From contig JABFRV010000018.1 of NCBI GenBank assembly GCA_013140975.1, forward strand, positions 1-61,569: DNA of 61,569 nt, given 5' to 3'. The notes under the pieces were generated by a model. That model was not told the origin of the DNA. It did no database searches and saw only the letters and a list, made by a program, of their open reading frames with translations. Shown here one piece after another: positions 12,978-53,128 of this stretch. Made by a program: the position numbers and the translations under genes. Each line of letters opens with the position of its first letter. The first letter of the stretch is position 1. Source of the DNA: Saprospiraceae bacterium (GTDB lineage: Bacteria > Bacteroidota > Bacteroidia > Chitinophagales > Saprospiraceae).

Positions 12978-13520
12978 TTAATGATGTGATGGAGCTTCTT
13001 TTTTTGTTTCCGCATCATTAGAATGATCTCCATGCTCATCTTTCTTAGTTAAAGTATCTTGATGTGCAGGTGCAAGCTGATTCTCCTTTTGGTCAACAGT
13101 TCCATGACCGGAGCTTTTTACGTCTTTTGCTTTCTCGTCAACCAGCCCAGTCAACGAGCCTATAGGTCTGTCATTCTTTTGTGCACGCCAATCATGCCAT
13201 GTTTTTCCTTCTGTAAAAAACGCTATAACAGCCCATACGAGCAATAAGGTTGGTAACAACACTGATTTTACAAGTCCAGGTACTTCATATTTCATGTGCA
13301 TAAAATAATATACAATAAAATATGCTTTATAAAGACTCATTACGATCATTAAAATATACATTAGCCATACAGGTAAGTGAAAATCTTTAACAAGATAACC
13401 CTTCCCTAAAAGGGCGACAAAAACTTCGGCTAAAGTTACAATCGCAAGGATTATTAATCCTTTCATGACTAACTTCTTACTTTCTTCGTATGATAAATGA
13501 CTCATATCTTTAAAATTCAA
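12978..13520 (-). CDS. Cytochrome c oxidase subunit IV (caa3-type)
   Basis: 180 residues with three transmembrane helices (LVMKGLIILAIVTLAEVFVA; VWLMYILMIVMSLYKAYFIV; LLPTLLLVWAVIAFF) and the subunit IV feature VYYFMHMKYE. A charged His-rich tail follows, ending DAETKKEAPSHH. It stabilises the oxidase in the inner membrane. It begins 9 bp after the 280-residue subunit III gene, in the same operon. Confidence 0.85.
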   Translation of the reverse strand: MNFKDMSHLSYEESKKLVMKGLIILAIVTLAEVFVALLGKGYLVKDFHLPVWLMYILMIVMSLYKAYFIVYYFMHMKYEVPGLVKSVLLPTLLLVWAVIAFFTEGKTWHDWRAQKNDRPIGSLTGLVDEKAKDVKSSGHGTVDQKENQLAPAHQDTLTKKDEHGDHSNDAETKKEAPSHH

Positions 13521-13529
13521 ATAATAATT

Positions 13530-14372
13530 TTATAATAAATAGAATACCAGGAACACGAAGACCCATACAAGGTCTACAAAGTGCCAGTACAAACCTATTT
13601 TCTCAACCATCTCATATTTATTGTTTCTACGTGCATAAAGCCCGCTGGCAACATTTAACGCTATAATAAGCAGGAATACAACCCCACTAAAAACGTGAAA
13701 TCCATGAAATCCTGTAATAAAGAAAAACAAAGCTCCAAAAGCTTTGGGGCCCATCTGTTGCGTTTTTACTTCACCGCCTTCAGTTTTATATTTTAAAGGT
13801 TGAAAATGTCCGTCATGATAATGAATTAAATAAGAGCTTCCTTTCGTAAAAGAATCTCCCGCTTTGATATCATGTCCATCACCTTCCAAATAGGTACCAT
13901 TTTCAATATGTGTACCAAATGGATTCCTGGTAATTGACATTTTTTCACCACCGATCAAAGTAGTCCACTCCCAGGCTTGACAACCTAGAAATCCTAAACC
14001 ACCAATAATCGTTAGAATCATCCAAAATACAACTCCTTTCTTATTTTCTCTATGTCCTTCTTGCACTGCTCTAACCATCGTTACCGAGCTTGCAATCAAT
14101 ACAAAGGTCATGATTGTTACAAATATTAAAGGCTTATGATGAATTCCTCCCGGCAAACCTGAAAAAACAAAATCAGGAACAGGCCACGTAGGCATACTGA
14201 ACCTTAAGGTACCATAAGCAATTAAAAAAGCTGAAAATGTAAATGCATCTGATAGCAAAAAATACCACATCATCAACTTTCCATAACTCGCTTTAAAGGG
14301 CTCACTGGCCCCATTCCAATTTTCGACTTCTGTATGATGCGATCCTGTATGAGCTGTATGTTCTGAAGACAT
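13530..14372 (-). CDS. ctaE: Cytochrome c oxidase subunit III
   Basis: 280 residues, heme-copper oxidase subunit III family. The N-terminus is His-rich (HTAHTGSHHTEVENWNG), followed by KLMMWYFLLSDAFTFSAFLI, the family helix I pattern. There is an inserted soluble loop of roughly 70 residues between helices (SITRNPFGTHIENGTYLEG onward), then GFHGFHVFSGVVFLL and the C-terminal YWHFVDLVWVFVFLVFYL that closes the family. It is the first of two subunit III-type proteins in this cluster. Confidence 0.9.
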   Translation of the reverse strand: MSSEHTAHTGSHHTEVENWNGASEPFKASYGKLMMWYFLLSDAFTFSAFLIAYGTLRFSMPTWPVPDFVFSGLPGGIHHKPLIFVTIMTFVLIASSVTMVRAVQEGHRENKKGVVFWMILTIIGGLGFLGCQAWEWTTLIGGEKMSITRNPFGTHIENGTYLEGDGHDIKAGDSFTKGSSYLIHYHDGHFQPLKYKTEGGEVKTQQMGPKAFGALFFFITGFHGFHVFSGVVFLLIIALNVASGLYARRNNKYEMVEKIGLYWHFVDLVWVFVFLVFYLL

Positions 14373-14386
14373 ATTTTAAATATTTC

Positions 14387-14968
14387 TTATTGTAATATCA
14401 AAAAAACTAATAAATAAATCCATAGTACCCCTAGAAAATGCCAATATTGACGTAATAGATCAAACTTTAAAATCTTCATGTCATTCACTGCAAATTCGCT
14501 TGTAAAAGCAAGTAGAATGCTTATAATAAAAGTTACTAATCCTCCAAGTAAATGCAATGCATGTAATCCTGCAATTACATATAAAAAGGAAATACTTACA
14601 TTTAAATCTATATACAATCCCTGAGATAACAAATTTTTTACAGCAATAATCTGACTGGCAATAAATCCAATCCCTAAAACAAAACTTGCAATTAATGATT
14701 GCTTAAACAATTTTTCATTTTTTCTTTTAAGTGCACGGAAACAAAATTCGAGAACAATTGAAGAGATAACAATTATTACTGTGCTATAAAAGAATTCAAT
14801 AGGTAATTTATATTCATACCAGTTACCAACACCTCTTCTCACTAAAAACGCACTTGTCAAAGCTCCAAATAGCATAATAATTGAAGCCATTCCAATCCAA
14901 AGTCCAAACTTTAAAGCCTGAACTTGACTGGGAGCTAACTCCTTGTTAAACATTTGAACTATTGGCAT
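14387..14968 (-). CDS. Second cytochrome c oxidase subunit III-type protein
   Basis: 193 residues, five helices. GLWIGMASIIMLFGALTSAF resembles subunit III helix I, GLHALHLLGGLVTFIISILL the central helix, and LRQYWHFLGVLWIYLLVFLI the terminal one. It is shorter than its neighbour and lacks the soluble insert. Paired subunit III genes are usual in Bacteroidota caa3 clusters. It lies one base after ctaB. Confidence 0.85.
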   Translation of the reverse strand: MPIVQMFNKELAPSQVQALKFGLWIGMASIIMLFGALTSAFLVRRGVGNWYEYKLPIEFFYSTVIIVISSIVLEFCFRALKRKNEKLFKQSLIASFVLGIGFIASQIIAVKNLLSQGLYIDLNVSISFLYVIAGLHALHLLGGLVTFIISILLAFTSEFAVNDMKILKFDLLRQYWHFLGVLWIYLLVFLILQ

Positions 14969-14969
14969 A

Positions 14970-15866
14970 TTATCTCATATAATTACTAATAATGAATAAA
15001 ATAAATATCACTGGTAAATACATTATAGAATATAGCATTAACTTTCTTGCAGCCATTCGATCATTTCTTTTAAATAACTGCCAACCATAAAATGCAAAAA
15101 CCAACATACTTGCAATAAGGAATATAAAAATTAGTGGATGAATTGAAAGTATCTTAAATAAGGGGAATAGAAATAATATTCCCAGCAAAGAATAAACTGC
15201 AGAATAAATTCCAAATCTAGGATCAGGTTGACCATCAATATCCTTTATCAATTTAAACCCTGCCTGAATATAATCTTTGTGACCCAAAAATGCAATTGCC
15301 CAGAAATGCGGAAATTGCCACAAGTACTGAATTCCAAAAAAGCACAATGCTTCTACTGTAATTGTTTGTTGCGCTGCAACTGCAGCTATTAAGGTTGGTA
15401 ATGCTCCGGGAATAGCTCCAATTGGAACTGCCAATGTAGAAAATCTTTTAACAGGAGTATAAATGAAAGCATACAATACAAGACTCAACATACCGAGCGT
15501 TGCACATAATGGACTTATAGTAACTAAAAAAATAATTCCTAAAACCATACAAATTCCTGCAATTAGTATAGCTGTTGATAAGCTCATTCTTCCTGCAGCC
15601 AGTGGTCTTCCTGCGGTCCTCTCCATCAATTTATCATAATCCCTTTCAATTGCCTGATTTAGTGCGTTTGCAGCGAAAGTAATTAACATGCCGCCACCGA
15701 TTAGTAAATACAAGACAATACTGCTGAAATTAGAACCTGCGAAAATCAAATATGTAGCTGCTGAGCTAAATATCACCATTAAGCTCAATCTGAACTTAAC
15801 CAATAAACCAAAATCCTTTATAAAAGAATTTTGCTTAAGTGAATATGATTTAGATTGCGTATTCAA
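14970..15866 (-). CDS. ctaB: Protoheme IX farnesyltransferase (heme O synthase)
   Basis: 298-residue UbiA-type prenyltransferase that adds a farnesyl group to heme B to make heme O, needed for the a-type hemes of the oxidase encoded next to it. The first Asp-rich motif is NALNQAIERDYDKLMERTAG (about 65-84), followed by RPLAAGRMS. The second region is FKLIKDIDGQPDPRFG. About eight helices are seen. Co-operonic with ctaD, which starts 14 bp upstream of its ATG. Confidence 0.94.
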   Translation of the reverse strand: MNTQSKSYSLKQNSFIKDFGLLVKFRLSLMVIFSSAATYLIFAGSNFSSIVLYLLIGGGMLITFAANALNQAIERDYDKLMERTAGRPLAAGRMSLSTAILIAGICMVLGIIFLVTISPLCATLGMLSLVLYAFIYTPVKRFSTLAVPIGAIPGALPTLIAAVAAQQTITVEALCFFGIQYLWQFPHFWAIAFLGHKDYIQAGFKLIKDIDGQPDPRFGIYSAVYSLLGILFLFPLFKILSIHPLIFIFLIASMLVFAFYGWQLFKRNDRMAARKLMLYSIMYLPVIFILFIISNYMR

Positions 15867-15880
15867 GGAATAAAATATTT

Positions 15881-17728
15881 TTAATGGTCACTTGGTTTTT
15901 CACCATCACGCAACGGAACGTGCTGTTGCGTAAATTCAATACCATCCTTACCATAATCATAAGACCATCGTTGTACTGTTGGAATTTTACCAGGCCAATT
16001 TCCATGACCTGCTTCAATTGGCGTAGTCCATTCTAACGAGTTAGATCCCCAAGGATTTTGAGAAGTCACACGTTTTCCTTTATACATTGACCAGAAGAAA
16101 TTTACAACAAATAAGATTTGTGCAAAAAAACTAACGATAGCTGCAATTGTAATAAACTTGTTCATATCATCAAAGCCACTAAATGCATCAAACTTATCAA
16201 ATAAGTAATATCTTCTAGGAACTCCCGCCATACCTAAAAAGTGCATCGGTCCGAAAACTGCATAAGCTCCAATTAACGTTATCCAAAAGTGAATCTTACC
16301 TAAGGTGTCATTCATATATCGTCCAAACATTTTTGGAAACCAATTGTATACACCCGCAAACATTCCAAAGAAAGCTGCAACACCCATTACAATGTGAAAA
16401 TGCGCAACTACGAAATATGTATCGTGTTGTTGTATATCAATCGCTGAATTTCCTAAGAAAATACCTGTTAGTCCACCGGAAATAAACATAGATACAAATC
16501 CAATACAAAACAGCATTGGAGTATTGAGGCGAATGTTACCGCCGTATAAGGTACTAATCCAATTGAACACCTTTACAGCTGATGGAACTGCAATGATTAA
16601 AGTAAAAACAACAAAGAAGTTAGACAAGAATGGATTCACACCCGACATAAACATGTGGTGAGCCCAAACAATAAATGATAAAAATGCAATTGCAAGAATT
16701 GAATACACCATTGCACGGTATCCAAATATTGGTTTTCTCGCGTGTACTGCTAAAACTTCAGAAACAATTCCCATCGCTGGAAGAATAATGATATATACTT
16801 CCGGATGTCCTAAAAACCAAAAAATATGCTGATATAAAATTGGTGATCCACCAATTCTATCTAATGCCATTCCATTCACAAAAATATCAGACAGGTAAAA
16901 ACTAGTACCCATACTTCTATCAAATATCAGAAGTAAAAATCCAGAGAATAAAACCGGGAATGAAAGAAGTCCTAATATAGCTGTTACAAGAAAAGCCCAA
17001 ATCGTTAATGGCATTCTCCAAAGGCTCATTCCTTTTGTACGAAGATTTAAAACGGTAGTAATATAATTCATACCTCCAAGTAGAACCGAAACTACAAACA
17101 ATGCAAGTGACACTATCCACAAAGTCATACCGGATTCAGAGCCTATTGAAGCCTGAGGCAAGGCACTTAAAGGTGGATAAGCTGTCCATCCTCCAGAAAA
17201 TGGTCCGGTACTTAAAAACAATGAATAAAACATTACTGCACTTGACAAGAAGAAAAACCAATATGACAACATATTGAGAAATGGCGATGCCATATCACGA
17301 GCTCCTAATTGTAATGGTATTAAGAAATTACTAAAAGTTCCACTTAATCCTGCCGTCAATACAAAAAACACGATAATAGTTCCATGCATTGTCACAAGGG
17401 CATAATAAAATTCAGGTTCAAGTGTTCCAATACCGGCTTCATTGATAATAATCCATTTACCCAAAATAGGTTTTAACCATGCCATACTTGCATCAGGAAA
17501 TCCTAATTGAAATCTAAATACTATAGACATCGCTGCACCAATAATTGCCCAGAATATTCCTGTGAAAAGGAATTGCCTGGCAATTATCTTATGATCCATG
17601 CTAAAGATGTACTTGGTCAAAAAGTTAAACTGGAACTTATCACCTTCATGATGTTCATGAAAATGATCATCGTAACCATATTTTTCTATCAGTGCGTCTT
17701 GTTCGTGATGATGATGACCTGATGACAT
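15881..17728 (-). CDS. ctaD: Cytochrome c oxidase subunit I
   Basis: 615 residues, catalytic subunit carrying heme a and the heme a3-CuB site. HPEVYIIILP (about 305) has the His-Tyr pair, WAHHMFMSG (about 353) the two CuB histidines, and HDTYFVVAHFHIVMG (about 435) the a3 and a heme ligands. The N-terminus is His-rich (MSSGHHHHEQ, then DDHFHEHHEGDKF). The length and the twelve-helix core are normal. It reduces O2 to water and pumps protons. Confidence 0.97.
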   Translation of the reverse strand: MSSGHHHHEQDALIEKYGYDDHFHEHHEGDKFQFNFLTKYIFSMDHKIIARQFLFTGIFWAIIGAAMSIVFRFQLGFPDASMAWLKPILGKWIIINEAGIGTLEPEFYYALVTMHGTIIVFFVLTAGLSGTFSNFLIPLQLGARDMASPFLNMLSYWFFFLSSAVMFYSLFLSTGPFSGGWTAYPPLSALPQASIGSESGMTLWIVSLALFVVSVLLGGMNYITTVLNLRTKGMSLWRMPLTIWAFLVTAILGLLSFPVLFSGFLLLIFDRSMGTSFYLSDIFVNGMALDRIGGSPILYQHIFWFLGHPEVYIIILPAMGIVSEVLAVHARKPIFGYRAMVYSILAIAFLSFIVWAHHMFMSGVNPFLSNFFVVFTLIIAVPSAVKVFNWISTLYGGNIRLNTPMLFCIGFVSMFISGGLTGIFLGNSAIDIQQHDTYFVVAHFHIVMGVAAFFGMFAGVYNWFPKMFGRYMNDTLGKIHFWITLIGAYAVFGPMHFLGMAGVPRRYYLFDKFDAFSGFDDMNKFITIAAIVSFFAQILFVVNFFWSMYKGKRVTSQNPWGSNSLEWTTPIEAGHGNWPGKIPTVQRWSYDYGKDGIEFTQQHVPLRDGEKPSDH

Positions 17729-17755: not shown

Positions 17756-19255
17756 TTATAAAACCTTAACTTCTATTCTTCTATTCTTTGCTCTTCCTTC
17801 TTCGCTATCATTTGAATCTATTGGCTTAGACATACCGTAACCGCTTGTATTAATTCTGCTGCCTTCGATTCCATTGGAAGAAAGAAATGACTTAACAGAT
17901 GCTGCCCTTTGTTGTGAAAGCAAAAGGTTAGAAGCAGGATCTCCGACATTATCGGTATGACCAGAAACTTCTAATTTTAGATTTGAATTTTCATTCAATG
18001 CATCAAGTATAACTTTCAATGCGTATTCTGATTCTTTCGAAAGTGTTGCTGAACCTGTTTCAAAATAAATATTATTTAAATTTAAAGTTTTGTCAGCAAC
18101 ATTTGTGTTTTTTGGATCAATGGCTTTTTTCAATGAAGTTCTTAGCTTTTCAGCTTCCGATTTTAATTCTACACCTAGTGGCTTGCCTTTAAATGGATCG
18201 TCATCTGTATTTCTTATAGAAGTAAGATAGTAAGATTTTTGTGTGGTAAGCCATTTTTCATATTCTTCCGGACTTACAACACGAACCAATCTTCTCATAC
18301 TGTAATGTCCTTTACCACATAATTCAGCACATGCCAATTCATAATTAAATGCTTTCCATTTTGGCGGACTGTTAGGATCAGATGGGTCTGAAGGAGTAGA
18401 ATATTCTTTATATTTCTTCAATTCTTGACGAAATTCTTCCGTAGTCTTTGTAGGAGTAAAAACAAAATATGTAGGAATTCCTGGCACTGCGTCCATCTTT
18501 ACTCTAAAGTGCGGTAAATAAAAATTGTGCAAAACGTCTCTTGCTATAATACTTACTCTTACTTTTTTTCCTTTTGGCAAGACTAATTCATCAGAATTGA
18601 AATCATCTAAATTCCTTTCATCATTCCAATCTTGCCCAAGTTCATTTGATCCTGGTTTAATTAATCTAAAGTCCTTAACACCGAGTTGACCATCAGGTCC
18701 AGAGTATCTTAGATTCCATGCAAATTGCCATGCTGTTGCTTCAATGTTTATTGCTTCTTCTCCGCTTTTAGTATCAGCCATAATTTCATTCCAGGCAATT
18801 AATCCTTTCACAACAAGAATTACCATTACAAACGCTGGAATTCCAGTCCATATTAACTCAAGCTTATCGTTATGCGGAATAAATAGTGTCTTTCGTCCAG
18901 GACGATATCTAAATTGGTATGCAAACCAGAACAATGCAATATGACAAATTACAAAAACGATAATTGTAAAAAATGCAGTTAGATTAAACATTGAGTCAAT
19001 AGAACCTCCATGAGCAGAAGCCGATTTTAATGGTCCGTAACCCAACATATAATTTGCATAATACAAGCAGCCCCAAATAAAGCATGCAAAAAATATTACG
19101 CAAAATATTAATAAACCTAAAGAATTAGAGTCCGCAGAGCCAATTTCAGATGCTTCTTCTCCTTTAAGTTCTTCTGCGATTTCGTATATTTTTGCTATCT
19201 GAATAAGTACTACAAAGAGTAAAATCACAGATAACAATACAATTAATGAAGTCAT
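17756..19255 (-). CDS. ctaC: Cytochrome c oxidase subunit II fused to an OmpA domain
   Basis: 499 residues. Residues 1-25, 45-70, 90-113 and 132-155 are membrane helices, more than the usual two. The periplasmic cupredoxin domain carries the CuA site: His243 (DVLHNFYLPHF), Cys309 and Cys313 (CAELCGKGHYSM), His317 and Met320. WQFAW (about 176-180) is the aromatic patch. After a charged linker (340-390) comes a complete OmpA-like domain (391-499): NNIYFETGSATLSKES, SGHTDNVGDPASNLLLSQQR with Asp435 and Arg450 in the peptidoglycan-binding positions, and GRAKNRRIEVKVL. The electron-accepting subunit may thus be tied to the cell wall. No frameshift or stop separates the two parts. ActF is 27 bp upstream of its start and ctaD 27 bp downstream. 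Confidence 0.94.
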   Translation of the reverse strand: MTSLIVLLSVILLFVVLIQIAKIYEIAEELKGEEASEIGSADSNSLGLLIFCVIFFACFIWGCLYYANYMLGYGPLKSASAHGGSIDSMFNLTAFFTIIVFVICHIALFWFAYQFRYRPGRKTLFIPHNDKLELIWTGIPAFVMVILVVKGLIAWNEIMADTKSGEEAINIEATAWQFAWNLRYSGPDGQLGVKDFRLIKPGSNELGQDWNDERNLDDFNSDELVLPKGKKVRVSIIARDVLHNFYLPHFRVKMDAVPGIPTYFVFTPTKTTEEFRQELKKYKEYSTPSDPSDPNSPPKWKAFNYELACAELCGKGHYSMRRLVRVVSPEEYEKWLTTQKSYYLTSIRNTDDDPFKGKPLGVELKSEAEKLRTSLKKAIDPKNTNVADKTLNLNNIYFETGSATLSKESEYALKVILDALNENSNLKLEVSGHTDNVGDPASNLLLSQQRAASVKSFLSSNGIEGSRINTSGYGMSKPIDSNDSEEGRAKNRRIEVKVL

Positions 19256-19282: not shown

Positions 19283-20617
19283 TTAAACGTGGTGATGTAA
19301 GCTTTCTTTAAGAAACGGATCATGCTTTGGAGTCAATGCAGCTTTAGATAAGAAATGTAAAGTTGTAGCAATAAATAAAGATAAGAATCCTAACATAACT
19401 CCAAATTCAGGAATTCCCGGAATTGTAAATCCAACTTTAAATCCTGTGCTATGAGCACTATGTGCATCAGCGGCTCCATGAGCATCGGCTGCATGTTCAG
19501 CAGCATGTCCGGCTACGCCATGAGCTGCAGAAGATGCATGGTCTCCCAACTCCATAGCAGTGTGCAAAGTTCCAGGTTTAATCATTTGAAATAAATCAAT
19601 CCAGTGACCTACAAAAACAAGTATACCTACGAGTATCAATGTTCCATATTTTCTCTTATTATCATTACGCATTAATATTAAAAATGGCAACACGAAGTTG
19701 ATTACAAGATTTCCATAAAATAATACCGGATATTCTTTGATCCTAGTTTGAAAATAAACAGTTTCTTCACCAATGTTTCCATACCAAATTAACATATATT
19801 GGTCAAACCATAAGTACGTCCAGAACACAGAAAACGCAAACATGAATTTTCCTAAATCATGGAAATGCTCTGAAGTAACTGCATGATAATATCCTCTGCT
19901 TTTCAAATAGATTAATAGAAGAATCGTAAGTGCAATCATACTTACAAAGCAAGAAGCACTGGAATACCATGCAAACATTGTACTGTACCAATGTGGGTCA
20001 ACTGACATAATCCACAACCAGATAGCAGCAGCACTTGTAAATCCTGCGATTGGTAAAAACAAAGCAGCATAAAATTTCATGGACTTATAATGTTTCCAAG
20101 GATTGTTCCCAAATTGGTTGCTACCGTGATCATCTTCAGCCACAGAAAGATCTCTCATTTTTTTTGCAAAAAAGAACCAAAGTGCAATAAATCCAAGACC
20201 TGCTATAGTATAAAAATGCTTATTTAGAAATCCGGATTTACCTTTAATAATTGGATCTGTCGCTGCAGTCTTTGCATCTGCCCAATGGTATAAATTATGC
20301 CATCCAAAATAAACACCCATGGCAATTATCCCCATTAGAACCAAACCTACAAGTAAAAAATGAGACATACCGTCCCATACTCTTCTAAATACAACATTCC
20401 AACCTGCATAAGCTGTCACACTTATACAAATAAAGAATATTGCCATTAAGGCAATGAGTGTAAAGAATACACTATTATGGAGGATATTTGTCCATAACCT
20501 TGTATGACCAAGATCATCATTGGAAGCAATATAAATAAGAGATAGTAGACCTATAATACCGAGTATTGCAAGTACAATCTTGTCTTTATTTGGCAATTGA
20601 ATATGTTCAGAATTCAT
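19283..20617 (-). CDS. actF: Alternative complex III subunit ActF
   Basis: 444-residue membrane protein of about ten helices, ActF of alternative complex III (menaquinol:cytochrome c oxidoreductase). FRRVWDGMSHFLLVGLVLMG, GWHNLYHWAD, IMSVDPHWYSTMFAWYSS and FSVFWTYLWFDQYMLIWYGN are family-typical. Near the C-terminus is a run of His/Ala (HGVAGHAAEHAADAHGAADA). It lies 25 bp after actE. Confidence 0.9.
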   Translation of the reverse strand: MNSEHIQLPNKDKIVLAILGIIGLLSLIYIASNDDLGHTRLWTNILHNSVFFTLIALMAIFFICISVTAYAGWNVVFRRVWDGMSHFLLVGLVLMGIIAMGVYFGWHNLYHWADAKTAATDPIIKGKSGFLNKHFYTIAGLGFIALWFFFAKKMRDLSVAEDDHGSNQFGNNPWKHYKSMKFYAALFLPIAGFTSAAAIWLWIMSVDPHWYSTMFAWYSSASCFVSMIALTILLLIYLKSRGYYHAVTSEHFHDLGKFMFAFSVFWTYLWFDQYMLIWYGNIGEETVYFQTRIKEYPVLFYGNLVINFVLPFLILMRNDNKRKYGTLILVGILVFVGHWIDLFQMIKPGTLHTAMELGDHASSAAHGVAGHAAEHAADAHGAADAHSAHSTGFKVGFTIPGIPEFGVMLGFLSLFIATTLHFLSKAALTPKHDPFLKESLHHHV

Positions 20618-20642: not shown

Positions 20643-21419
20643 TTATTTTTTTACAGGACTTGCAGGAACAATAGTGGCTGCAACTTTATTAATTGAAGCT
20701 TTTCTGGCATCCGATACAGCCTGTGAATTGGTAAAAGTATTTTCAGTTTCTGTATACTTAAGATTTTTAGAACCTGCTTGAAGAGATCTAATATAATGTA
20801 TAACTTCCCATCTTTCATTGTAAGATAATTTGTTACTATATCCATTCATAACATTTTTACCATACATTATAGCATGATACAGCCTTCCTTCTGTAGCAGC
20901 GATGAAATCATCATTAATTAGATTAGCAGGTTGCGCAGGATATTTTCCTCCATCATCTCTCACTAAATAACCTGCACCATCTCCTTTTTCACCATGACAA
21001 ATTCCACAATAGATTAAATAATTAGTCTTTCCATTTTCTAATACTTTTTTAGAAATAGGAATAGCATTTGAAACTATTTCTCTGCTAGCTCGCGCACGCT
21101 CTTCTTCTGTATCACTATAATAATAATTTCTATGTCCATTATTTACATAAGAAATGGTATTTAAAGAATCTACAAGTGAGGAAGAAACCGATCCTCTCGG
21201 AACCGTTCCTTTTACTGGGTTTCTTGGTATTGCATATTTTCTATAATCGTCAATTCCACCCCAATGATGATAATCATAGTATTGTTGCGAGTTGGCTTCA
21301 TAGGAGACCGCATGTCCCATATCTGACATATACTCATGACCAGGATTATTACCTTCTGCAGGAGAGCAGGCTTTAATCAAAGCAACAATTAGGATCAATA
21401 TATAAATATTGTATTTCAT
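20643..21419 (-). CDS. actE: Alternative complex III subunit ActE, monoheme cytochrome c
   Basis: 258 residues. Lipobox IKAC near residue 18 anchors it on the periplasmic face. One CxxCH (CGICHGEKGDGAGYL, about 138-152) binds a heme c, and a Met ligand may lie in HAIMYGKNVMNGY. GDYxK-like Bacteroidota features include HHWGGIDDYRKYAIPRNPVK. It passes electrons from the complex to the oxidase or a soluble carrier. Spacing to actD is one base. Confidence 0.92.
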   Translation of the reverse strand: MKYNIYILILIVALIKACSPAEGNNPGHEYMSDMGHAVSYEANSQQYYDYHHWGGIDDYRKYAIPRNPVKGTVPRGSVSSSLVDSLNTISYVNNGHRNYYYSDTEEERARASREIVSNAIPISKKVLENGKTNYLIYCGICHGEKGDGAGYLVRDDGGKYPAQPANLINDDFIAATEGRLYHAIMYGKNVMNGYSNKLSYNERWEVIHYIRSLQAGSKNLKYTETENTFTNSQAVSDARKASINKVAATIVPASPVKK

Positions 21420-21420
21420 G

Positions 21421-21942
21421 TTAGATTGATTTCGTATTTACTTCCTCTGCACCGGAATCAGAGAAAAAACTTTTAGCATCAGATACACTTACCTCATTCG
21501 TATCAAAAGCAAGACAAAATTTGTCATCCGTTGTCCTTAGGTCAACTTGAGGATTTTCAACTCCCGGCCAAAGTCCACAAATTGTATAAAATGTTATTGT
21601 CATTCCCCAAGCTGCAAATAAAACTGTCATTTCAAATGTTATAGGTATAAATGCAGGTACTGACCAATATGGTTTTCCTCCAAAAATTATCGGCCAATCT
21701 CTCGTAAAAATCCAGGTCATTCCTAAGAACCCTGTTAATGTACCCAATGCACCGTAAACAAATCCGGCAATATGCAATCTCGATTCACTTAATCCTAAAG
21801 CCTGATCCATACCGTGTACCGGAAATGGAGTATATACATCAAAAATTTCAAGATGATTATTTTTTGCTTTACGGATAGCATGAAGAAGCTTTTCTTCATC
21901 ATCATACAATCCGTACACAACATCTACATTATATTTTCTCAT
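21421..21942 (-). CDS. actD: Alternative complex III subunit ActD (DUF3341)
   Basis: 173 residues, DUF3341. VVYGLYDDEEKLLHAIRKA opens a small soluble alpha/beta domain, and FDVYTPFPVHGMDQALGL leads to two helices (GFVYGALGTLTGFLGMTWIF and ITFEMTVLFAAWGMTITFY). Its position between actC and actE is standard. Confidence 0.92.
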   Translation of the reverse strand: MRKYNVDVVYGLYDDEEKLLHAIRKAKNNHLEIFDVYTPFPVHGMDQALGLSESRLHIAGFVYGALGTLTGFLGMTWIFTRDWPIIFGGKPYWSVPAFIPITFEMTVLFAAWGMTITFYTICGLWPGVENPQVDLRTTDDKFCLAFDTNEVSVSDAKSFFSDSGAEEVNTKSI

Positions 21943-21979: not shown

Positions 21980-23422
21980 TTAATGATGACCGTGATCAGA
22001 ATGTGATTTAGAATGTGAATGATCCAGATCATTCGAATGTGAGTGTGTTGCATTTTCACCAATATATTGATCTCCTCCTACCTTTAAGATGTGCTTTACT
22101 TCAGCGATTGCAACAACCGGCGCAACTCTTGTAAATATCATATATAAAGTAAAAAACAAACCTATCGTTCCTATAAAGATTCCTATCTCAACCCAGGTCG
22201 GTTTATAGTAAGACCAGGAAGATGGAAGATAATCTCTTGCAAGTGTTGTGGCAATAATTACAAACCTTTCAAACCACATACCAATGTTAACAAAAATACT
22301 CATGATAAAAGTAATGAGTACACTTCTTCTAAATTTCTTTACCCAAAATATCTGAGGAGAAATAACATTACAAGTCATCATACCAAAATACGACCACCAA
22401 TAAACTCCCATTGCTCTGTTAAAGAAAGCGAACTGTTCATATACATAACCTGAATACCAGGCAATAAATAATTCTGTTAGATATGCAACTCCTACAATAG
22501 TTCCGGTTACAAGAATAACCTTGTTCATTGATTCAATATGTTCAAGAGTAATATACTCTTCCAGTTTAAGAATTTTTCTGGTAATAACCATTAATGTTTG
22601 TACCATAGCAAATCCAGAAAAAATAGCACCTGCAACAAAGTAAGGTGGAAAGATTGTTGTATGCCAACCAGGTATCACAGATGTTGCGAAGTCAAAGCTT
22701 ACAATAGTATGAACTGATAATACAAGTGGTGTAGATAATCCAGCCAATACCAATGATAATGATTCCCATCTTTGCCAATGCTTAGCAGAACCTGTCCATC
22801 CAAATGATAATCCATTGTAAATTTTCTTTCTAAGTCCCGTTGCACGATTTCGAATGCTTGCAAAGTCAGGAACTAATCCAGTATACCAGAATAAAAGTGA
22901 AACAGAAAAGTAAGTTGAAATTGCAAATACATCCCATAGTAAAGGTGAATTGAAATTCGGCCATAAAGAACCTCTTGTATTAGGATATGGAAAGAAATAA
23001 AAAACCACCCAAATTCTTCCGACGTGAATTAAAGGAAACATGGCAGCACAGATTACCGCAAAAATTGTCATTGCCTCAGCCGCTCTGTTTACACCTGTTC
23101 TCCATCTTTGACGAAATAACAATAAGATTGCAGATATTAATGTTCCGGCGTGACCAATACCGATCCACCACACGAAATTGGTAATATCATAAGCCCATCC
23201 TATCGTTCTGTTGGCTCCCCAGCTTCCAATTCCCATCCATATTGTCCAAACAATACAGAATAAACCAAAAGCAAGAACCGACGCAGATATAATAAAAGCA
23301 ATAACCCAAGCGCGCGTTGGCGCTTTTTCCGTTGGCGAGCAAAGGTCCTCTGTAATTTGATGGTAAGTCTTATGCCCCTCAATCAGAGGTCTTCTTACCG
23401 GTGCTACAACTCCTGCTGACAT
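21980..23422 (-). CDS. actC: Alternative complex III subunit ActC (NrfD-like quinol-binding)
   Basis: 480 residues, NrfD/PsrC-type polytopic protein with about ten helices, expected to hold the menaquinol site near the ActB iron-sulfur module. Features: FVWWIGIGHAGTLISAILLL, TGLVPDFASIRNR, FDFATSVIPGWHTTIFPPYF, NIGMWFERFVI. The C-terminus ends in a His/Ser-rich tail (HSHSNDLDHSHSKSHSDHGH). It starts 19 bp after actB. Confidence 0.93.
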   Translation of the reverse strand: MSAGVVAPVRRPLIEGHKTYHQITEDLCSPTEKAPTRAWVIAFIISASVLAFGLFCIVWTIWMGIGSWGANRTIGWAYDITNFVWWIGIGHAGTLISAILLLFRQRWRTGVNRAAEAMTIFAVICAAMFPLIHVGRIWVVFYFFPYPNTRGSLWPNFNSPLLWDVFAISTYFSVSLLFWYTGLVPDFASIRNRATGLRKKIYNGLSFGWTGSAKHWQRWESLSLVLAGLSTPLVLSVHTIVSFDFATSVIPGWHTTIFPPYFVAGAIFSGFAMVQTLMVITRKILKLEEYITLEHIESMNKVILVTGTIVGVAYLTELFIAWYSGYVYEQFAFFNRAMGVYWWSYFGMMTCNVISPQIFWVKKFRRSVLITFIMSIFVNIGMWFERFVIIATTLARDYLPSSWSYYKPTWVEIGIFIGTIGLFFTLYMIFTRVAPVVAIAEVKHILKVGGDQYIGENATHSHSNDLDHSHSKSHSDHGHH

Positions 23423-23441: not shown

Positions 23442-26400
23442 TTAAGCTTCAATTGATTCATCTTTATTCGTCACTCTCATGGAATAATTTACAACTGATT
23501 TTACTCCAATTTCTTCAAGCACTATAAAATTCAATGGATTATTTAACTTCTTACTCAAGGCACTTTCAGGATTATTCATATCCCCAAATGTGATTGCACC
23601 TGTAGGACAAGCCGTTTGACATGCAGTTTTCACTTCATTGGCTTTTAAAGTCCTTCCTTCTTTTTTCGCATTCAGTTTACCATCTTGTATTCTTTGTATA
23701 CAGAAAGAACATTTTTCTATTACTCCTCTTGATCTGACAGTAACATCCGGATTGAGTACCATTCTTACAAGATTTTCGGCATAGTATGGTTTATCTTTTT
23801 CCCCAGCCATCATTCTTGAATTTCCTGGAAATAAATCGGATTCTGTATAATCGTACCAATTAAATCTTCTTACTTTATATGGACAGTTATTTGCACAATA
23901 TCTTGTACCCACACAACGATTGTAAGCCATTTGATTTAATCCATCTGATGAATGGTTCGTTGCATTAACAGGACAGACATTTTCGCAAGGAGCACTATTA
24001 CAATGTTGACACATCATAGGCTGATATGCTACACTTGGATTTTCAACATCTCCGTAATAATATCTATCGATTCTCAACCAGGTCATTTCATGGTGGCGGG
24101 CAACTTCTCTTTTTCCAACAACAGGTACATTGTTTTCTGAAACACAAGCAACAGCACACGCACTGCAACCTATGCAACTATTCATATCGACATGCAATCC
24201 CCAATGATGACCTGAATTATATTGATAATCATAGCTCGGATATAATGAATGAGAATTTAACTTCTGTGCTTCTTTTCTCTTTTCATTATTGTGCTCAACT
24301 TTTTCTTTAAGCTCACTAAGATTACTGGTTCTTAAAATTGAACGATCAGTTAATGATCCTTGATATCCTTTCGTTATTGGCTTAAAGAAATCATCTACTA
24401 AAGCTGCTTCGTCAGCATTTATTTTTTTACCAGATGATTTTTCTATCGCAGTAACTCCTAAGGTATGATGATGCTGTACACATGCAAAACCATTCTCGAT
24501 TCCTTGATTTGCATCTGCTAAGTCAACACCTTCTGCATAATATTGTGTATGTCCATTTTCATCCAACTTTAAGTATGGATAAAAATTTACACCTACACCA
24601 GTTCCACATACTCCCCCTTGTGTTCTTCCGTATCCCAACGAAACTGCAAGAGTCTCTTTCATTTGGCCAAATTGCTTGATCGCGCCAATACTTGAATTTT
24701 GTCCGTTTAAACTTAAATTAACGATTGTGCCGTCTTCATTAATATTTTTGAACGCTTCAAATCTTCTATCTCCATCAAAGCTTATTGGAATAGCAACATA
24801 ATTTCCCCAGGCACATCGGGTAATTGGATCTGGAATTTCTTGCAACCAAGGATTATTTGCATACTGTCCTGCACCAATACCAATATTTTCTACTAATGAA
24901 ATTTCTAATCCACCTGTTGAAGTAGGTTTAATTTTTGAAGCACTAGCAGCAACATTAACTCCAAAGGCTGAATTTAATGACAAGCCTGTTGGGACTTCAT
25001 ATACTCCATTGTGCAATATTTTATCCCACTCAAGATTAGCAAACATCTCCTTCCATGAAGTTTTTAGATATTCATAGTAAGGTTGTTCAGCACTGCTATT
25101 TAAATTGGCTGATTTTGCCCATACCAATAAAGAATGCTCAGGTTGACGTGTATTAAATATTGGATTAATAGTAGGTTGTATTAAGGAATACATTCCACTT
25201 TTAGGTTCAACATCACCCCATGATTCAAGATAATGATGAACCGGTGCTGCATGAGTACAATGAATAGCAGTTTCGTCAAGAGAAGAATTCATACTTACTC
25301 TTAAAGCCACTTTAGACATTGCATCTTTAAATTGATTGGCAATTGCTAAATCATAACATGGATTCGCATTCCATATTATTAATGCATCTACTTGACCATT
25401 ACTCATTTCAGACACGAGTGTATTGACATCAGCTTCATTACCCTGACGTTGAAAATTCACTCTTGAAAATCCTACAGTGGTTCCTATATTACCTAACAAT
25501 TGATTTATTCCAAAAACAATAGTTTGTTGATCGATATTATTATTCCCACAAACAATCAGTGATTTTCCTTTATTTGCATACAAGGCATCAGCAGCTTTAC
25601 TTAGTGCAATCTTAGCTTTTTCATTTACTTCTCCACCCGGCAACGCAGCACTGCCGGATTTAGCAGCAATAAGATTGTAAAGTGCAATAATTGCAGAACC
25701 TTGTTCCGATGGTTTTACTAAAATTCTATGATCTGCATTAGAACCAGTAAGTGACATATGAGATTCAACCTGAAAATGTCTTGACATCTTCGGTTTATCA
25801 TTATCTACCCTTCTGCCTTTTACATACTGAGATGCATATTCTATTGGTGAAATCCATGTTCCTAAAAAGTCAGCATTAAAACTAACAATAGCTTCTGCTA
25901 TATCAAATTTATAATCCGGAATACCCCTTACTCCAAAGCAATTTTGTGTTGCTTGAAGTAGCGCAGCACTGGAAATTGCATCATACATTATGTGTTTCGT
26001 ATTCGGAAATTTGGCACAGAACTCACGAATTGCTTTTTTAGCTGTTGGGCTCATAATAGTAGAGCTTACAATTCTAATCCTTGAGCCAGCATTCAAGCTT
26101 GAATGAACAGCATTATCCAGATCAGTCCAACTTATATCTTCAGTTTGCTCTCCATTAATTTTCGCAGAATTTTTCAATCTGTTAATATCGTAAAGAGACA
26201 AAACAGAAGCTTGCGCTCTTGATGATGTTCCACCGTTTGTAATTGAGGATAAAGAATTCCCTTCAATTTTTATAGGTCGACCTTCACGCGTTTTTACGAT
26301 TACAGGACAAAAATCACCTCCGTTAACAAACGTAGAGGCATAATAATTTGCAATACCTGGAATGATTTCATCTGTAGCAACTGTATACGGTATCGCTTTT

Positions 26401-26633
26401 TTAATTGGAGTTTCGCAAGATGCAAGTGTTGCAGCACTAATTCCGAAGCCCAATAGTTTTAAAAAATCTCTACGATTGGCTTGCACACCAACACTATTAT
26501 CATCTTCTAATAAGGCAGAAATATTGACTGCAGATCTTTCTGAATTCAATTCTTGCAGCAAAATAGGATCTTGTGTAAGATCTTTTTCGCTAATCCAGAT
26601 ATTTTGATCGTTATTCTTCATTTTCATTTTCAA
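23442..26633 (-). CDS. actB: Alternative complex III subunit ActB (MopB-like plus iron-sulfur)
   Basis: 1063 residues. A Tat-type signal NRRDFLKLLGFGISAATLAS ends in SC (about 54-75), which may also be lipidated. Residues about 90-720 resemble a molybdopterin oxidoreductase domain, in this family without cofactor. Residues about 810-1000 are the ferredoxin part: CIGCSACAVAC, CQHCNSAPCENVCPVNA, CVGTRYCANNCPYKVRRFNW and CSFCIQRI ... CQTACPTGAI, giving 4Fe-4S and 3Fe-4S clusters. It takes electrons from ActC and gives them to ActA hemes. ActA ends 7 bp upstream. Confidence 0.95.
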   Translation of the reverse strand: MKMKMKNNDQNIWISEKDLTQDPILLQELNSERSAVNISALLEDDNSVGVQANRRDFLKLLGFGISAATLASCETPIKKAIPYTVATDEIIPGIANYYASTFVNGGDFCPVIVKTREGRPIKIEGNSLSSITNGGTSSRAQASVLSLYDINRLKNSAKINGEQTEDISWTDLDNAVHSSLNAGSRIRIVSSTIMSPTAKKAIREFCAKFPNTKHIMYDAISSAALLQATQNCFGVRGIPDYKFDIAEAIVSFNADFLGTWISPIEYASQYVKGRRVDNDKPKMSRHFQVESHMSLTGSNADHRILVKPSEQGSAIIALYNLIAAKSGSAALPGGEVNEKAKIALSKAADALYANKGKSLIVCGNNNIDQQTIVFGINQLLGNIGTTVGFSRVNFQRQGNEADVNTLVSEMSNGQVDALIIWNANPCYDLAIANQFKDAMSKVALRVSMNSSLDETAIHCTHAAPVHHYLESWGDVEPKSGMYSLIQPTINPIFNTRQPEHSLLVWAKSANLNSSAEQPYYEYLKTSWKEMFANLEWDKILHNGVYEVPTGLSLNSAFGVNVAASASKIKPTSTGGLEISLVENIGIGAGQYANNPWLQEIPDPITRCAWGNYVAIPISFDGDRRFEAFKNINEDGTIVNLSLNGQNSSIGAIKQFGQMKETLAVSLGYGRTQGGVCGTGVGVNFYPYLKLDENGHTQYYAEGVDLADANQGIENGFACVQHHHTLGVTAIEKSSGKKINADEAALVDDFFKPITKGYQGSLTDRSILRTSNLSELKEKVEHNNEKRKEAQKLNSHSLYPSYDYQYNSGHHWGLHVDMNSCIGCSACAVACVSENNVPVVGKREVARHHEMTWLRIDRYYYGDVENPSVAYQPMMCQHCNSAPCENVCPVNATNHSSDGLNQMAYNRCVGTRYCANNCPYKVRRFNWYDYTESDLFPGNSRMMAGEKDKPYYAENLVRMVLNPDVTVRSRGVIEKCSFCIQRIQDGKLNAKKEGRTLKANEVKTACQTACPTGAITFGDMNNPESALSKKLNNPLNFIVLEEIGVKSVVNYSMRVTNKDESIEA

Positions 26634-26640
26634 TTAAAAA

Positions 26641-28044
26641 TCAATAATGACATTTTTGACATTCCAAACCGCCAATATCGGCAACTTTTACGCTTGTTCT
26701 TTTCCCATCTTTTAACTCATCGTGATAAGTTTTATAACTTTCGTAATACTTGTTGTCTTTGAATTTCACATCTGTTTGTCTGTGACAATTAATACACCAT
26801 CCCATTGACAGAGGAGCATATTGACGAAGCGTTGCCATTTCACTTACATTACCATGACATTTTTCGCAAGCGACTTTACCAATTGTTACATGTTGTGAAT
26901 GGTTGAAATAAACATGATCCGGAAGATTATGAATTCTTACCCATTCTATTGGTCCTTGTAGTTTTGGTTTATTAGGACCTGTCATACTGTTAACGATATC
27001 TGACCATTCGCTTTCAACAATCGCTTTCGCTTCTTCAGAAAGGTCTTTAAGTTTATTTTCTTCTTTGTAATTATCTGCAATCCATCTTTTAAATATGGTA
27101 TCTATTGCTGATTGTTCCAAATTATCATAGTTGTCTATATATTTTCCAGTATTCGGATTAAAACCAATTGAGGTATAAATTTTAGTAATTTCTGAAGTAC
27201 CGGAAATTGTTCCTTTTTTAATTGCCGTATGACAATTCATACAAGTTGAAGCTCCGGGAATAACTGATTGCTTGGATCTTCTTGCACCATCATGACAATA
27301 ATTACAATCAATTTTATTCGTTCCTGCATGAATTTCATGTGAAAAATTAATAGGTTGATCAGGCGCATAATTTTGCTGACGGCCCAAGGAAATTGCATTA
27401 TTTACAGTTGTATATCCACCAAATAATATTAACCCAAATAAAACTAATGTTACGACTCCTTTGCTGGATAACTTATCCCAAAGGCTATGTCTTTGTGCAT
27501 TTTTATCTCCCATTGCTAAACTTCTGGTAAATGTCATATCTGACATCACATTCCACAAGAAAAGCGCAAGGGTTAAAAGAATACCAAAGGCAACATAAAT
27601 CCAAACCGGTGAAAAACCTGTTTTTGTAGCAACTTGTGTAGCTCCAACTGCAGCAGGGGTTGCTCCTGGGCAATTCCCTTTAGCGGTGCAGTCTACATAT
27701 AATAGAATGCTTTCAATATCTTCATCAGTTAAGGTTGGAAAAGCCTGCATTAGTGTTGGCTTCCACTCACTCCATAGTTCTGTAGCTTTGGGATGACCCG
27801 CTGCAATTAAACTTTGCGAATTTCTAATCCATTTGTATAAATCTTCTTTAGGGTATGCTGCCCATCTTTCTTGAACACCGCCTAACGCTGGTCCTGTTAG
27901 CTTGTCTTTCATGTTTTTATTATGACAGCTGGCACAGTTGTTCTTGAAAATTGTCTTACCTGATTCAATGCTGGGAGCTGCATTCAGTATAAAACTGGAA
28001 AGCAGAGTCAGCAAAAGCAGCTTGCTTATGCGAATTCCGTACAT
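26641..28044 (-). CDS. actA: Alternative complex III subunit ActA, six-heme cytochrome c
   Basis: 467 residues from the preferred start ATG 28044 (a longer frame opens at 28146). The shorter form gives a clean leader (MYGIRISKLLLLTLLSSFIL), and a TAnnTTTG box at 28114-28121 would lie inside the longer frame. An N-terminal monoheme domain (CASCHNKNMKDKLTGPALGG) precedes two membrane helices (WIYVAFGILLTLALFLWNV, VVTLVLFGLILFGGYTTVN). The periplasmic multiheme part follows: CNYCHDGARRSKQ, CMNCHTAIKKG, CEKCHGNVSEM, CINCHRQTDV and CQKCHY at the end, so six CxxCH in all. It is the first gene of the respiratory operon. Confidence 0.92.
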   Translation of the reverse strand: MYGIRISKLLLLTLLSSFILNAAPSIESGKTIFKNNCASCHNKNMKDKLTGPALGGVQERWAAYPKEDLYKWIRNSQSLIAAGHPKATELWSEWKPTLMQAFPTLTDEDIESILLYVDCTAKGNCPGATPAAVGATQVATKTGFSPVWIYVAFGILLTLALFLWNVMSDMTFTRSLAMGDKNAQRHSLWDKLSSKGVVTLVLFGLILFGGYTTVNNAISLGRQQNYAPDQPINFSHEIHAGTNKIDCNYCHDGARRSKQSVIPGASTCMNCHTAIKKGTISGTSEITKIYTSIGFNPNTGKYIDNYDNLEQSAIDTIFKRWIADNYKEENKLKDLSEEAKAIVESEWSDIVNSMTGPNKPKLQGPIEWVRIHNLPDHVYFNHSQHVTIGKVACEKCHGNVSEMATLRQYAPLSMGWCINCHRQTDVKFKDNKYYESYKTYHDELKDGKRTSVKVADIGGLECQKCHY

Positions 28045-28113
28045 AAATGGTTGATATAAAGTGAAATACAAATTGCGGTTCGGTTTATTTGAAAAAGGAC
28101 TATTTGAATGGCG

Positions 28114-28121
28114 CAAAAATA
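28114..28121 (-). promoter_or_regulatory. Possible -7 box (TATTTTTG) for the act-cox operon
   Basis: On the minus strand TATTTTTG fits TAnnTTTG. It would start transcripts near 28107, about 60 bases before the preferred actA ATG at 28044. No -33 TTTG at the ideal distance is seen. Confidence 0.3.
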
Positions 28122-28234
28122 GATTGATTATTGAAAACCTCCTCATTTTAAGCTTAGTATTTATTAAAAACTTTAATCATTTCTCGAAAACGTTCCATTT
28201 CTACTATAAATAAACGTTAAAATTATCTTAAGGT

Positions 28235-39226: not shown

Positions 39227-42200
39227 TTATTTCAACAAACTAACATTTCCCTTAAGAGAATACGATTTATCATCAGGACAAGTAAATCGTACGCACCATG
39301 CATAGACATCAGGTCCAAGTTTCTCGCCATCAAATGTTCCATCCCATCCACTTCCAATATTTGTAGACTTATACATTTCCTGACCCCATCTGTTATAGAC
39401 AACCAATTCCATTGATTTAAGAGATATTGCTCTCACTCTGAATTGATCATTTTTGCCGTCATTATTAGGAGAAAACGCATTCGGAACAAAAACAAATTCA
39501 TCACAAGGACCTACTTTTACTGTAACGGTTGAAGTTGCCGTACATCCATTTGGATCAGTAACAGTAACTGTATATGAAGTGGTTTTCTTAGGAGTAGCAA
39601 TTGGATTATAAATATCAATTGCATTTAAGCTGCTATCATTTGGCGACCATAGATATTTATAGTTTGCTCCCTGAATAGTTGTCAACTGAGAACTACTACC
39701 AACAACAATGACTTCGGGATCAGCTTTGGCAAAGATAACATTACCGATATCCGATACATTTACAGTATGAGAGTCTGTCCACACACATCCTGATAAAGTA
39801 TCTTTGACTGTAACAGTATAAGTTGTTGATTTGGTTACATTCACCAGAATTTCAGATCCATTAGAGCTTCCTATGATTCCTGTTTTTGGAGTCCACTCAT
39901 AAGTCCAGTCAGCATTAGAAGGAACTGCTTTAAGACGAATTGTATCATTAACACATTTATTTTCCGGTCCTTCAATATTAACCGTAACATCCTGGAATTT
40001 AATCCTTGTTGTATCTCTAACTAAACAGTTAGCGAAATAACCTTTAACAATAATCGTCAGATCACCGCTCACAATTACATCAATCTTAGAACCAGAACCT
40101 ATAACTTTTCCATCTGCAGTACACCACTCTATTCTATCAAGATTCGTACTGGTGACGTTTAATTCTATTGTGTCAGGACGGCAAATAATTTCCTGATGTG
40201 AATTAATAGAAATACTTCCTGTTGGAAATGCTACATAAACACTATCTGTTTTTGTACACGTTGAATCCAACTTATCAGAATAAGTAACTTTGTACCAACC
40301 ATTCTTAGGATTTTTTAAAGTTGGATTCGCAATTTTGGAATTAACAAAGCAGGTATCAGGTTGCCATTGATAAATGAAATCATTTGATGCTCCAACATTT
40401 AATGTCAAAGGATCCTCAGGGCAGATAGAAAGACTATCTTTAAGATTCAGATCAAGTTTAACAACTACAATATCTACAGAAGACGGAACAGCACACAAGG
40501 TATCAGCATTCAAAGTCACTGTATATTTTCCGGGCTTGGAATAAGTATATTCATCCATATTTTTGGTTGAAGTTCCGGTTCCATCTCCGAAGTTCCATCT
40601 TACCTTTCCACTATAATCTGTAGCGACTTTTATTTTAAGACTACCACATACAGTTTCAACTTTTATGTCAGGCTTTATAGTCGGAGAAATTGTTAAGCTA
40701 ATTGTATCTGTCTTTTCACAACCAAATTGATTCTTTGCGTTAAAAGTAACAACGTATACTCCTGGTCCCGACGTATTTAATTTAGGATTCAAAGTTCCTT
40801 GGCCTGAACTAATCAAATTGCTTGGTTTCCACTCAATCGTTATATTATCGCCTGCTTTATTATTTCGCACGATGAGATTAAAGCTGTCTTTGTCGCATAT
40901 TTTATTCTCACGAGTATATCCAAGATCCAAAGAACGATCAAGCAATTTAACAACTCTTACTTCGCGACACTCTCCTTTTGAAGCACGAACATAAAGAGTA
41001 CGATCTCCTCTGATAGTACCATTAAATGTAGTTCCTGTATATTCTATTGGATTAAAATTACTATTGTAAGACCATTCAAAAATACTTGTTGAATCTGAAG
41101 TTCCTGTCAAAGATATTTTTCCATCGCAAGTAGCAGTATCTCCACTTATTGTTAATCCAATTTTGTTTCTGACATCAAGAGTAACTTGTTGTTCTGATTT
41201 ACATCCACTTACGGCATCAAGTATTACAACTTTGTAAGTTGTTGTTACTTCAGGAGATGCATTAGGATTACTTGGATCAGATAGGTTAAGACCATTTATT
41301 GGAGTCCATACATAAGTAAAATTACGATTCGGATTAGAAATCAACCTTACTGAATCTCCTTTGCATAATATTCTATCACTAATTAAATTAACATCTATAA
41401 CATTAACAATTTGCGTTTTTGTAAGGGAATCCTTACATCCATTAATGTCAGTAATTACCAATTTGATGCTATAAGTACCGCCAGAATTAATGTTGAAAGT
41501 TGGATCTTTATCTATAGAATTTTGATTGGGTTTACCAACAGCACTAAGAGTCCAGTTATAACTACTTATTGCAGACCCACTGGTTGAATTATTCGTTACT
41601 TCTATTTTAAGATCCGGATCACACTTATACTTAGAAGAAAAATCTGGTACAATTGTAGAAGGAATAAGAGTTATCGTCTTCTTGATAGTATCATTACAAC
41701 CAGCATTTCTAGCTACCAATACTACTGTATAGGTTCCTGATCGAGGAAAAGTATAACTTGGATTAGAACTTGTGGAAGTTGCATTTAGATTATTTGGATA
41801 TTCAAAGAACCATTGTATAGAAGCTGCTCCGGTAGATTTATCGCTAAAACTCTGCGTTAATCCATTACACACGTTTGAAGTTATATCAAAAGCTGCGGTT
41901 GGTGTTGCGCCACAAGGGACGATATTAATTTCAAAATCTCTGCTCGTGTAAGACATTTTAACACCGTTGCGATACTCAGTTACGCAAACACCTATTAAAA
42001 ACTGACCAACAGTATTTGGAGTACCAGTTATTTCACCTGTTGCAGGATTAATCTTTAATGGTATACCGGCACCAAATGGATTTGTAAGACTATTTAACGT
42101 ATATCCATTTCTGAAGATAACACTATCATATGGGGGTGGACCTGCATATCCTTTAGGATCAGCCAAGGTTTTACCTGAATTTGGTCGACAAAAGCTATAT

Positions 42201-42817: not shown

Positions 42818-42846
42818 TCTTTTATATTTAAATAGTAAGCTTTAAA

Positions 42847-45786: not shown

Positions 45787-45805
45787 TTTTCTTATTGTTC
45801 TAGTA

Positions 45806-50618: not shown

Positions 50619-50640
50619 ATTTGCAAGCAAAGACATATAC

Positions 50641-53100: not shown

Positions 53101-53128
53101 TTTCTGATATTCTGCTTTCCTCTTGTGA

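Follow-up and report, generated by a model that had tools for sequence, protein, structure and literature searches.

The usual picture of respiratory complexes is that they diffuse within the membrane. The fixing of inner-membrane or lipid-anchored proteins to peptidoglycan is the work of OmpA-domain proteins such as MotB, TagL, YiaD and Pal, which are dedicated anchors or parts of motors or secretion systems and not catalytic respiratory subunits. An extra C-terminal domain on subunit II of an oxidase is known from subunit IIc of caa3 oxidases, in which it is an electron-carrying cytochrome c. Physical association of alternative complex III (ACIII) with an oxidase has been reported for Flavobacterium johnsoniae and R. 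marinus, and ActE is periplasmic in the known ACIII; in R. marinus it was suggested to be a lipoprotein and was placed, within the supercomplex, close to the periplasmic domain of subunit IIc (PMC5928083). In F. johnsoniae, ActE is dispensable for electron transfer to aa3, and growth is slower without it (PMC8552683). The two systems are described as caa3 (R. marinus) vs. aa3 (F. johnsoniae), the latter having an ActA with an extra heme domain (PMC5928083; PMC8552683).

Judged by sequence search, the nearest precedent for an OmpA domain on an electron-transfer complex is PsaB of Gloeobacter violaceus (PDB 7F4V). Like the protein described here, it is an electron-transfer core subunit with a C-terminal OmpA-like stretch (chain aB, residues 754-863 of 872, E 3.5e-14), yet it belongs to the photosystem of a cyanobacterium and not to an oxidase. 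PsaB was modelled as residues 3-727, and the main text of the structure paper, in its available part, does not mention peptidoglycan or OmpA (PMC9000952). The OmpA-like stretch falls beyond the part listed as modelled (PMC9000952).

The window, i.e., the whole stretch of 61,569 nucleotides of Saprospiraceae DNA that was analysed, carries an ACIII-aa3 operon on the minus strand in the order ActA, ActB, ActC, ActD, ActE, ActF, CoxB, CoxA, heme O synthase and subunit III-like genes. The Act genes lie directly upstream of the oxidase genes, and CoxB adjoins the gene of subunit I:

26641..28146, minus strand, ActA with an extra N-terminal cytochrome c domain (61-151), by family match
23442..26633, minus strand, ActB, named by length and position and matched across the loci of relatives
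21980..23422, minus strand, ActC (NrfD family), by family match
21421..21942, minus strand, ActD (PF11821, 201.5 bits)
20643..21419, minus strand, ActE, the ACIII monoheme cytochrome c, here with no OmpA domain; N-terminus lipobox-like by eye
19283..20617, minus strand, ActF, named by position and weak similarity to ActC; no family match
17756..19255, minus strand, CoxB-OmpA fusion, 499 aa plus stop, an open frame from ATG to stop
15881..17728, minus strand, CoxA, subunit I (PF00115, 482 bits)
12978..15866, minus strand, heme O synthase, two subunit III-like proteins and one small protein without a family match

A neighbouring ACIII, as claimed in the initial annotation of this DNA, is thus borne out by the ActA-ActF genes, and an ACIII-aa3 supercomplex would be expected to form in the window organism. 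The F. johnsoniae supercomplex resembles it in combining ACIII with aa3 and in the extra cytochrome c domain of ActA (PMC5928083; PMC8552683), but differs in that the available text of its paper names OmpA only as a promoter.

The fusion gene is divided as follows:

18776..19255, minus strand, CoxB residues 1-160, N-terminal helices including COX2_TM (Pfam and model)
18221..18751, minus strand, CuA cupredoxin domain, residues 169-345, with ligands H243, C309, E311, C313, H317 and M320
18092..18220, minus strand, linker between CoxB and OmpA, residues 346-388 (43 residues), with a predicted helix at 361-379
17759..18091, minus strand, OmpA-like peptidoglycan-binding domain, residues 389-499 (Pfam, sequence and fold matches)
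17951..17953, minus strand, codon of D435, the spacing-equivalent of PorE Asp576
17927..17929, minus strand, codon of N443, the spacing-equivalent of PorE Asn584
17906..17908, minus strand, codon of R450, the spacing-equivalent of PorE Arg591

Three Pfam matches were found on the protein: COX2_TM at residues 77-149 (30.2 bits, cut-off 22.8), COX2 (PF00116) at 221-263 (38.0 bits, cut-off 22) and, as the strongest, OmpA (PF00691) at 397-492, which spans positions 1-98 of the 98-position profile with 84.3 bits, far over the cut-off of 27.2. The best match to an NCBIfam equivalog, TIGR02866, reached 127.4 bits and stayed under the cut-off of 147.7, and CoxB is for this reason filed as a Pfam COX2 subunit II. 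H243, C309, C313, H317 and M320 are unvarying in an alignment of 11 sequences, and the CuA ligands including E311 in all 72 full-length fusions among the best 80 of 580 loci. The OmpA domain has D435 within a GHTD motif and R450 within an LSxxR motif. The initial annotation was therefore right in describing one open frame with a CuA domain followed by a complete OmpA domain with the canonical Asp and Arg. CoxB is an ordinary electron-accepting subunit II of the aa3 type with an added C-terminal periplasmic OmpA domain.

An AlphaFold2 model built with 58 sequences (mean pLDDT 85.9) showed a helical N-terminus (helices 2-31, 33-65, 83-114 and 130-159), the cupredoxin, a linker with one helix, and an OmpA fold with block pLDDT of 87-94 from residue 391 on. 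In fold comparison, model residues 67-343 matched oxidase subunit II (Z about 15) and residues 366-499 matched OmpA, TagL, Pal and MotB domains (Z 14-18). The top matches of the OmpA part were Capnocytophaga OmpA (Z 17.9) and the peptidoglycan-binding domain of EAEC TagL (16.5); the OmpA domain of A. baumannii solved with a peptidoglycan pentapeptide (3td5) gave Z 14.9. By prediction and by its sequence relatives, the added domain would thus share the fold of MotB, TagL, YiaD, Pal and other OmpA-domain proteins. In the window genome the fused CoxB is the single PF00116 match, alongside three COX1-type matches, so that, provided the genome is complete, it encodes no unfused subunit II from which its aa3 oxidase could be built. 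PF00691 matches over the cut-off number 16, the fused CoxB included.

CXXCH is absent from the window CoxB, which by its lack of the cytochrome c motif is not a subunit IIc of the caa3 type; its extra domain sits at the same place as that of subunit IIc but is of a wall-binding type. Among the CoxB ORFs, CXXCH was present in 15/19 outside the class and in 0/141 inside it, and ActA is shorter outside the class (median 215 vs. 432 aa, incomplete ones included). This class-wide pattern fits the published contrast between R. marinus caa3 and F. johnsoniae aa3. Once no cytochrome was needed there, the C-terminus of subunit II could presumably take up another domain.

PorE binds the diaminopimelate stem peptide through the side chains of Asp576, Asn584 and Arg591 (PMC7192894). 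D435, N443 and R450 lie at the same spacing as this triad and are unvarying in 72/72 fusions among the best 80 of 580 loci. In the 178-genome set, the Asp is kept in 48/48 CoxB-borne and 10/11 ActE-borne OmpA domains, and the Arg in 48/48 and 11/11, respectively; the 48 CoxB-borne domains count one genome twice, via two loci. These triad counts describe HMM-detectable domains only, because three further CoxB tails, all from the 6 of the best 80 of 580 loci with no detected OmpA on either gene, were not HMM matches: that of L226, a decayed OmpA domain without the Asp and Arg (hhalign E 2.3e-5), and those of L230 and L239, of OmpA length and doubtful relation to the domain (hhalign E 0.034), likewise without both residues. 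The decay in L226 looks recent, since L226 is sister to the intact fusion L234 on short branches. Altogether, the sequence evidence for peptidoglycan binding by the CoxB OmpA domain is strong, and the domain would be expected to bind peptidoglycan in the cell.

In sequence, the linker is conserved less than any other part (mean majority 0.49), and its length, residue 345 included, is 37-46 residues in 72/72 relatives and exactly 42 in 40 of them. The OmpA part of the window protein is 68 percent identical to that of L002, the CoxB part 92 percent. For L006/L007, the sole pair of ten with dS below 1 in all three parts, dN/dS was 0.05 for OmpA, 0.02 for CoxB and 0.10 for the linker; the other nine pairs had dS of about 1.3 or more, or undefined, with computable OmpA dN/dS of 0.05, 0.12 and 0.17. 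The OmpA part is under purifying selection.

Within the window family (n=37, own genome included), 25 genomes had a full-length match to the fusion, 8 a match ending before OmpA, and 4 no CoxB match listed; full-length matches were also found in G054 and G059, from other families of the same order. Separate genes for the two parts in close relatives would have spoken against the fusion, but this is not what they have: 6/8 same-genus genomes have a full-length match as one open frame with no internal stop, and in the remaining two (G005, G008) the best listed match is the OmpA domain of another protein. Nor, in the loci read, was a separate OmpA gene split from CoxB seen adjoining it. The best 80 of 580 loci comprised 72 with OmpA on CoxB (ActE was not seen in 8 of these), 1 with OmpA on ActE (L237), 6 with no detected OmpA on either gene and 1 with CoxB cut by a contig end; these counts, like those from the best fusion matches L001-L020, are not prevalence, because the sets were picked by fusion match and overlap, the best 80 of 580 loci also overlapping the 178-genome set. 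All seven records without MAG in the title among these best 80 loci carry OmpA on CoxB: Lewinella cohaerens DSM 23179, Neolewinella persica DSM 23188, three Membranihabitans, Portibacter marinus and Saprospirales bacterium GYS_P2D; four of the seven were checked with Pfam and gave OmpA matches of 70.7-88.5 bits. A sequencing or assembly artefact is ruled out by the 72 of the best 80 of 580 loci together with these seven records, and an oddity private to one genome by the full-length matches in relatives. The fusion is thus confirmed as real; it is widespread among Saprospiraceae and has parallels in other families.

A domain of this type was also found on a second subunit. Operon stretches were read from 178 genomes of the order, class and phylum, a 179th entry being an empty placeholder. 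Of the 136 genomes with both genes readable, 28 had OmpA on CoxB and 9 had it on ActE; none had it on both, and 99 had it on neither. The respective numbers for CoxB, ActE and neither were 24, 3 and 7 in the window family (n=34) and 4, 6 and 40 in the rest of the order (n=50), whereas all genomes of the rest of the class (n=34) and of the phylum (n=18) had OmpA on neither gene. Outside the 136, CoxB+OmpA was seen in 19 genomes where CoxB alone was readable, and ActE+OmpA in 3 where ActE alone was. One of the latter is weak: in G354 (outer family f105), whose own CoxB was not seen, ActE has an OmpA-like tail of 48 bits with the Asp replaced by Trp. G034, also not among the 136, has a fused CoxB on another contig, beyond the stretch read. 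Two of the nine ActE cases contain N: in G515 a run of N separates ActE from the OmpA frame after it, and the pair was counted as ActE+OmpA, whereas in G057 the ActE-OmpA frame itself includes such a run. L237, a further ActE+OmpA case, has its own CoxB without OmpA. A lipobox-like motif is present in 8/11 ActE fusions of the 178-genome set and in L237. No OmpA domain was seen on operon proteins other than CoxB and ActE in the loci read, and stand-alone OmpA ORFs numbered 4 there, one being the G515 piece. OmpA on ActE in other lineages is new here. The absence of genomes with OmpA on both is not a count of independent events; the alternation between CoxB and ActE suggests that the whole ACIII-aa3 unit is the thing tethered.

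Other length differences were noted in these operons. The long CoxB tails of G029 and L237 were rejected as OmpA, being other or low-complexity sequence by eye, and in G049, G474, G315 and G350 the extra CoxB length comes from an insertion before the CuA ligands, not from a tail. CoxB of families f14 and f75 (L040, L079, L129, L149) has a long insertion at that position. ActD of G490 and G354 (L089, L151; both ActE+OmpA) has a long C-terminal extension, alike by eye in the two.

On a tree of operon proteins from 158 genomes the OmpA trait is scattered. In parsimony, unknown states were left out (among them CoxB of G477 and G484, where the contig ends inside the gene) and G034 was set to fused. 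Equal costs gave 3 gains and 8 losses for CoxB (142 tips) and 5 gains and 2 losses for ActE (139 tips), or 4 and 2 without G354; with gains costed 10 times losses, a single gain of each fits, with 16 and 21 losses for CoxB and ActE, respectively. On the Saprospiraceae family tree (117 rows), CoxB showed 1 gain and 10 losses, or 8 losses if three doubtful tails are counted as present, and ActE 1 gain and 1 loss (96 rows). There, ActE+OmpA forms a basal grade (L237; G011 with G013; G578) and CoxB+OmpA is derived, so that a relocation of OmpA from ActE to CoxB at one branch is possible. Branch supports at the base of this tree are 0.63, 0.98 and 0.82, and G578 is placed differently in the 158-genome tree, with three CoxB-fusion genomes (support 0.67).

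The OmpA domain itself is too short for settling origins. In AU tests on its tree a single origin was not rejected for all CoxB-borne domains (p 0.07), for these without family f4 (p 0.12) or for all ActE-borne domains (p 0.64), and the case for independent acquisition therefore rests on the operon tree and not on the OmpA domain. A hint of a separate donor comes from families f8 and f19, whose CoxB-borne OmpA is grouped with a stand-alone domain of G548 at 97 percent SH-aLRT. The occurrence of the domain on either of two subunits, but not on both, suggests that evolution tied the respiratory machine to the wall more than once. The repeated losses mark the OmpA domain as accessory.

We propose that the OmpA domain anchors the ACIII-aa3 supercomplex to peptidoglycan and that the attachment can be made through CoxB or ActE, and give this prediction from sequence a probability of about 0.75. 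The domain would bind the diaminopimelate stem peptide non-covalently, as PorE and other OmpA-family anchors do. The oxidase with its ACIII partner, as an inner-membrane complex, would be tethered to the wall via a linker of nearly fixed length, and the tether point would be interchangeable, the same domain type being found on ActE in other lineages. The benefit would lie in immobilisation or positioning of the supercomplex. The initial annotation had already read the oxidase, and possibly its ACIII, as fixed to the wall: this reading gains from the architecture, the ACIII genes, the binding residues and the alternation between CoxB and ActE, but the trait extends well beyond one odd protein, and the domain is accessory by its repeated losses. 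We lean slightly towards the further step that, in such a wall-anchored supercomplex, the oxygen-reduction sites would keep fixed positions and be carried along as the wall grows, and would not diffuse through the membrane. E. coli nitrate reductase has been reported to change place with metabolic state (PMC4466248).

Alternatively, the domain might serve the envelope and not respiration, with an abundant inner-membrane complex used as a handy anchor that attaches the inner membrane to peptidoglycan or maintains the spacing. This would agree with a linker whose length is kept though its sequence is not, with a domain carried by either of two subunits, and with the 16 PF00691 matches in the genome, which indicate that wall anchoring is a common need. 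We nevertheless regard it as unlikely: the carriers known here come from this complex, the one that the analysis covered, stand-alone anchors would serve equally well, and the frequent loss would be costly under a role in envelope integrity. It is more doubtful still that the OmpA fold stabilises the contact between ACIII and oxidase, or dimerises the supercomplex, without binding peptidoglycan. ActE and CoxB are the only carriers seen, R. marinus ActE lies near subunit IIc (PMC5928083), and L226 has retained an OmpA-like tail that lacks the binding residues, all of which would suit such docking; three binding side chains unvarying in 72/72 exceed what a docking surface needs, however, and 99/136 genomes have the operon with OmpA on neither gene. 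A neutral gene fusion now decaying is very hard to credit, since the eight to ten CoxB losses, at least one degenerate tail in the family and the faster evolution of the OmpA part than of the CoxB part are set against a dN/dS of 0.05 in the OmpA part of L006/L007, binding residues unvarying over deep divergence and recurrence on two subunits.

An existing good description would have spoken against the initial annotation. In the open-licence literature we found none of a fusion of the CoxB/OmpA type, either in searches for it or in those on supercomplexes and their placement and on Gloeobacter; a review of III-IV supercomplexes has no mention of OmpA, peptidoglycan or the cell wall in its available part (PMC8361435). 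Together with Gloeobacter PsaB, the present case indicates, as an inference from two cases, that wall-anchor domains may have been joined to bacterial electron-transfer complexes more than once.

Elsewhere in the window, positions 39227-46825 and 47004-54346 (minus strand) hold two consecutive copies of a three-gene unit, each encoding a large PKD/CHU_C protein that bears a type IX secretion signal domain, a protein matching PorE/CHU_0125 or PD40, and a PorP/SprF protein. One member, a protein of 979 aa (42847-45786, minus strand), matches PorE/CHU_0125 models below their cut-offs in its N-terminal half and has a sub-threshold OmpA match near its C-terminus (23.8 bits, cut-off 27.2).

A built-in anchor on either subunit would be direct evidence of selection on the position or immobility of the oxidase. 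The proposed wall anchor is testable, as it is one removable domain that should be dispensable for catalysis. Such an anchor would also link the envelope to energy conversion in Saprospiraceae, bacteria that are common in activated sludge and on marine particles.
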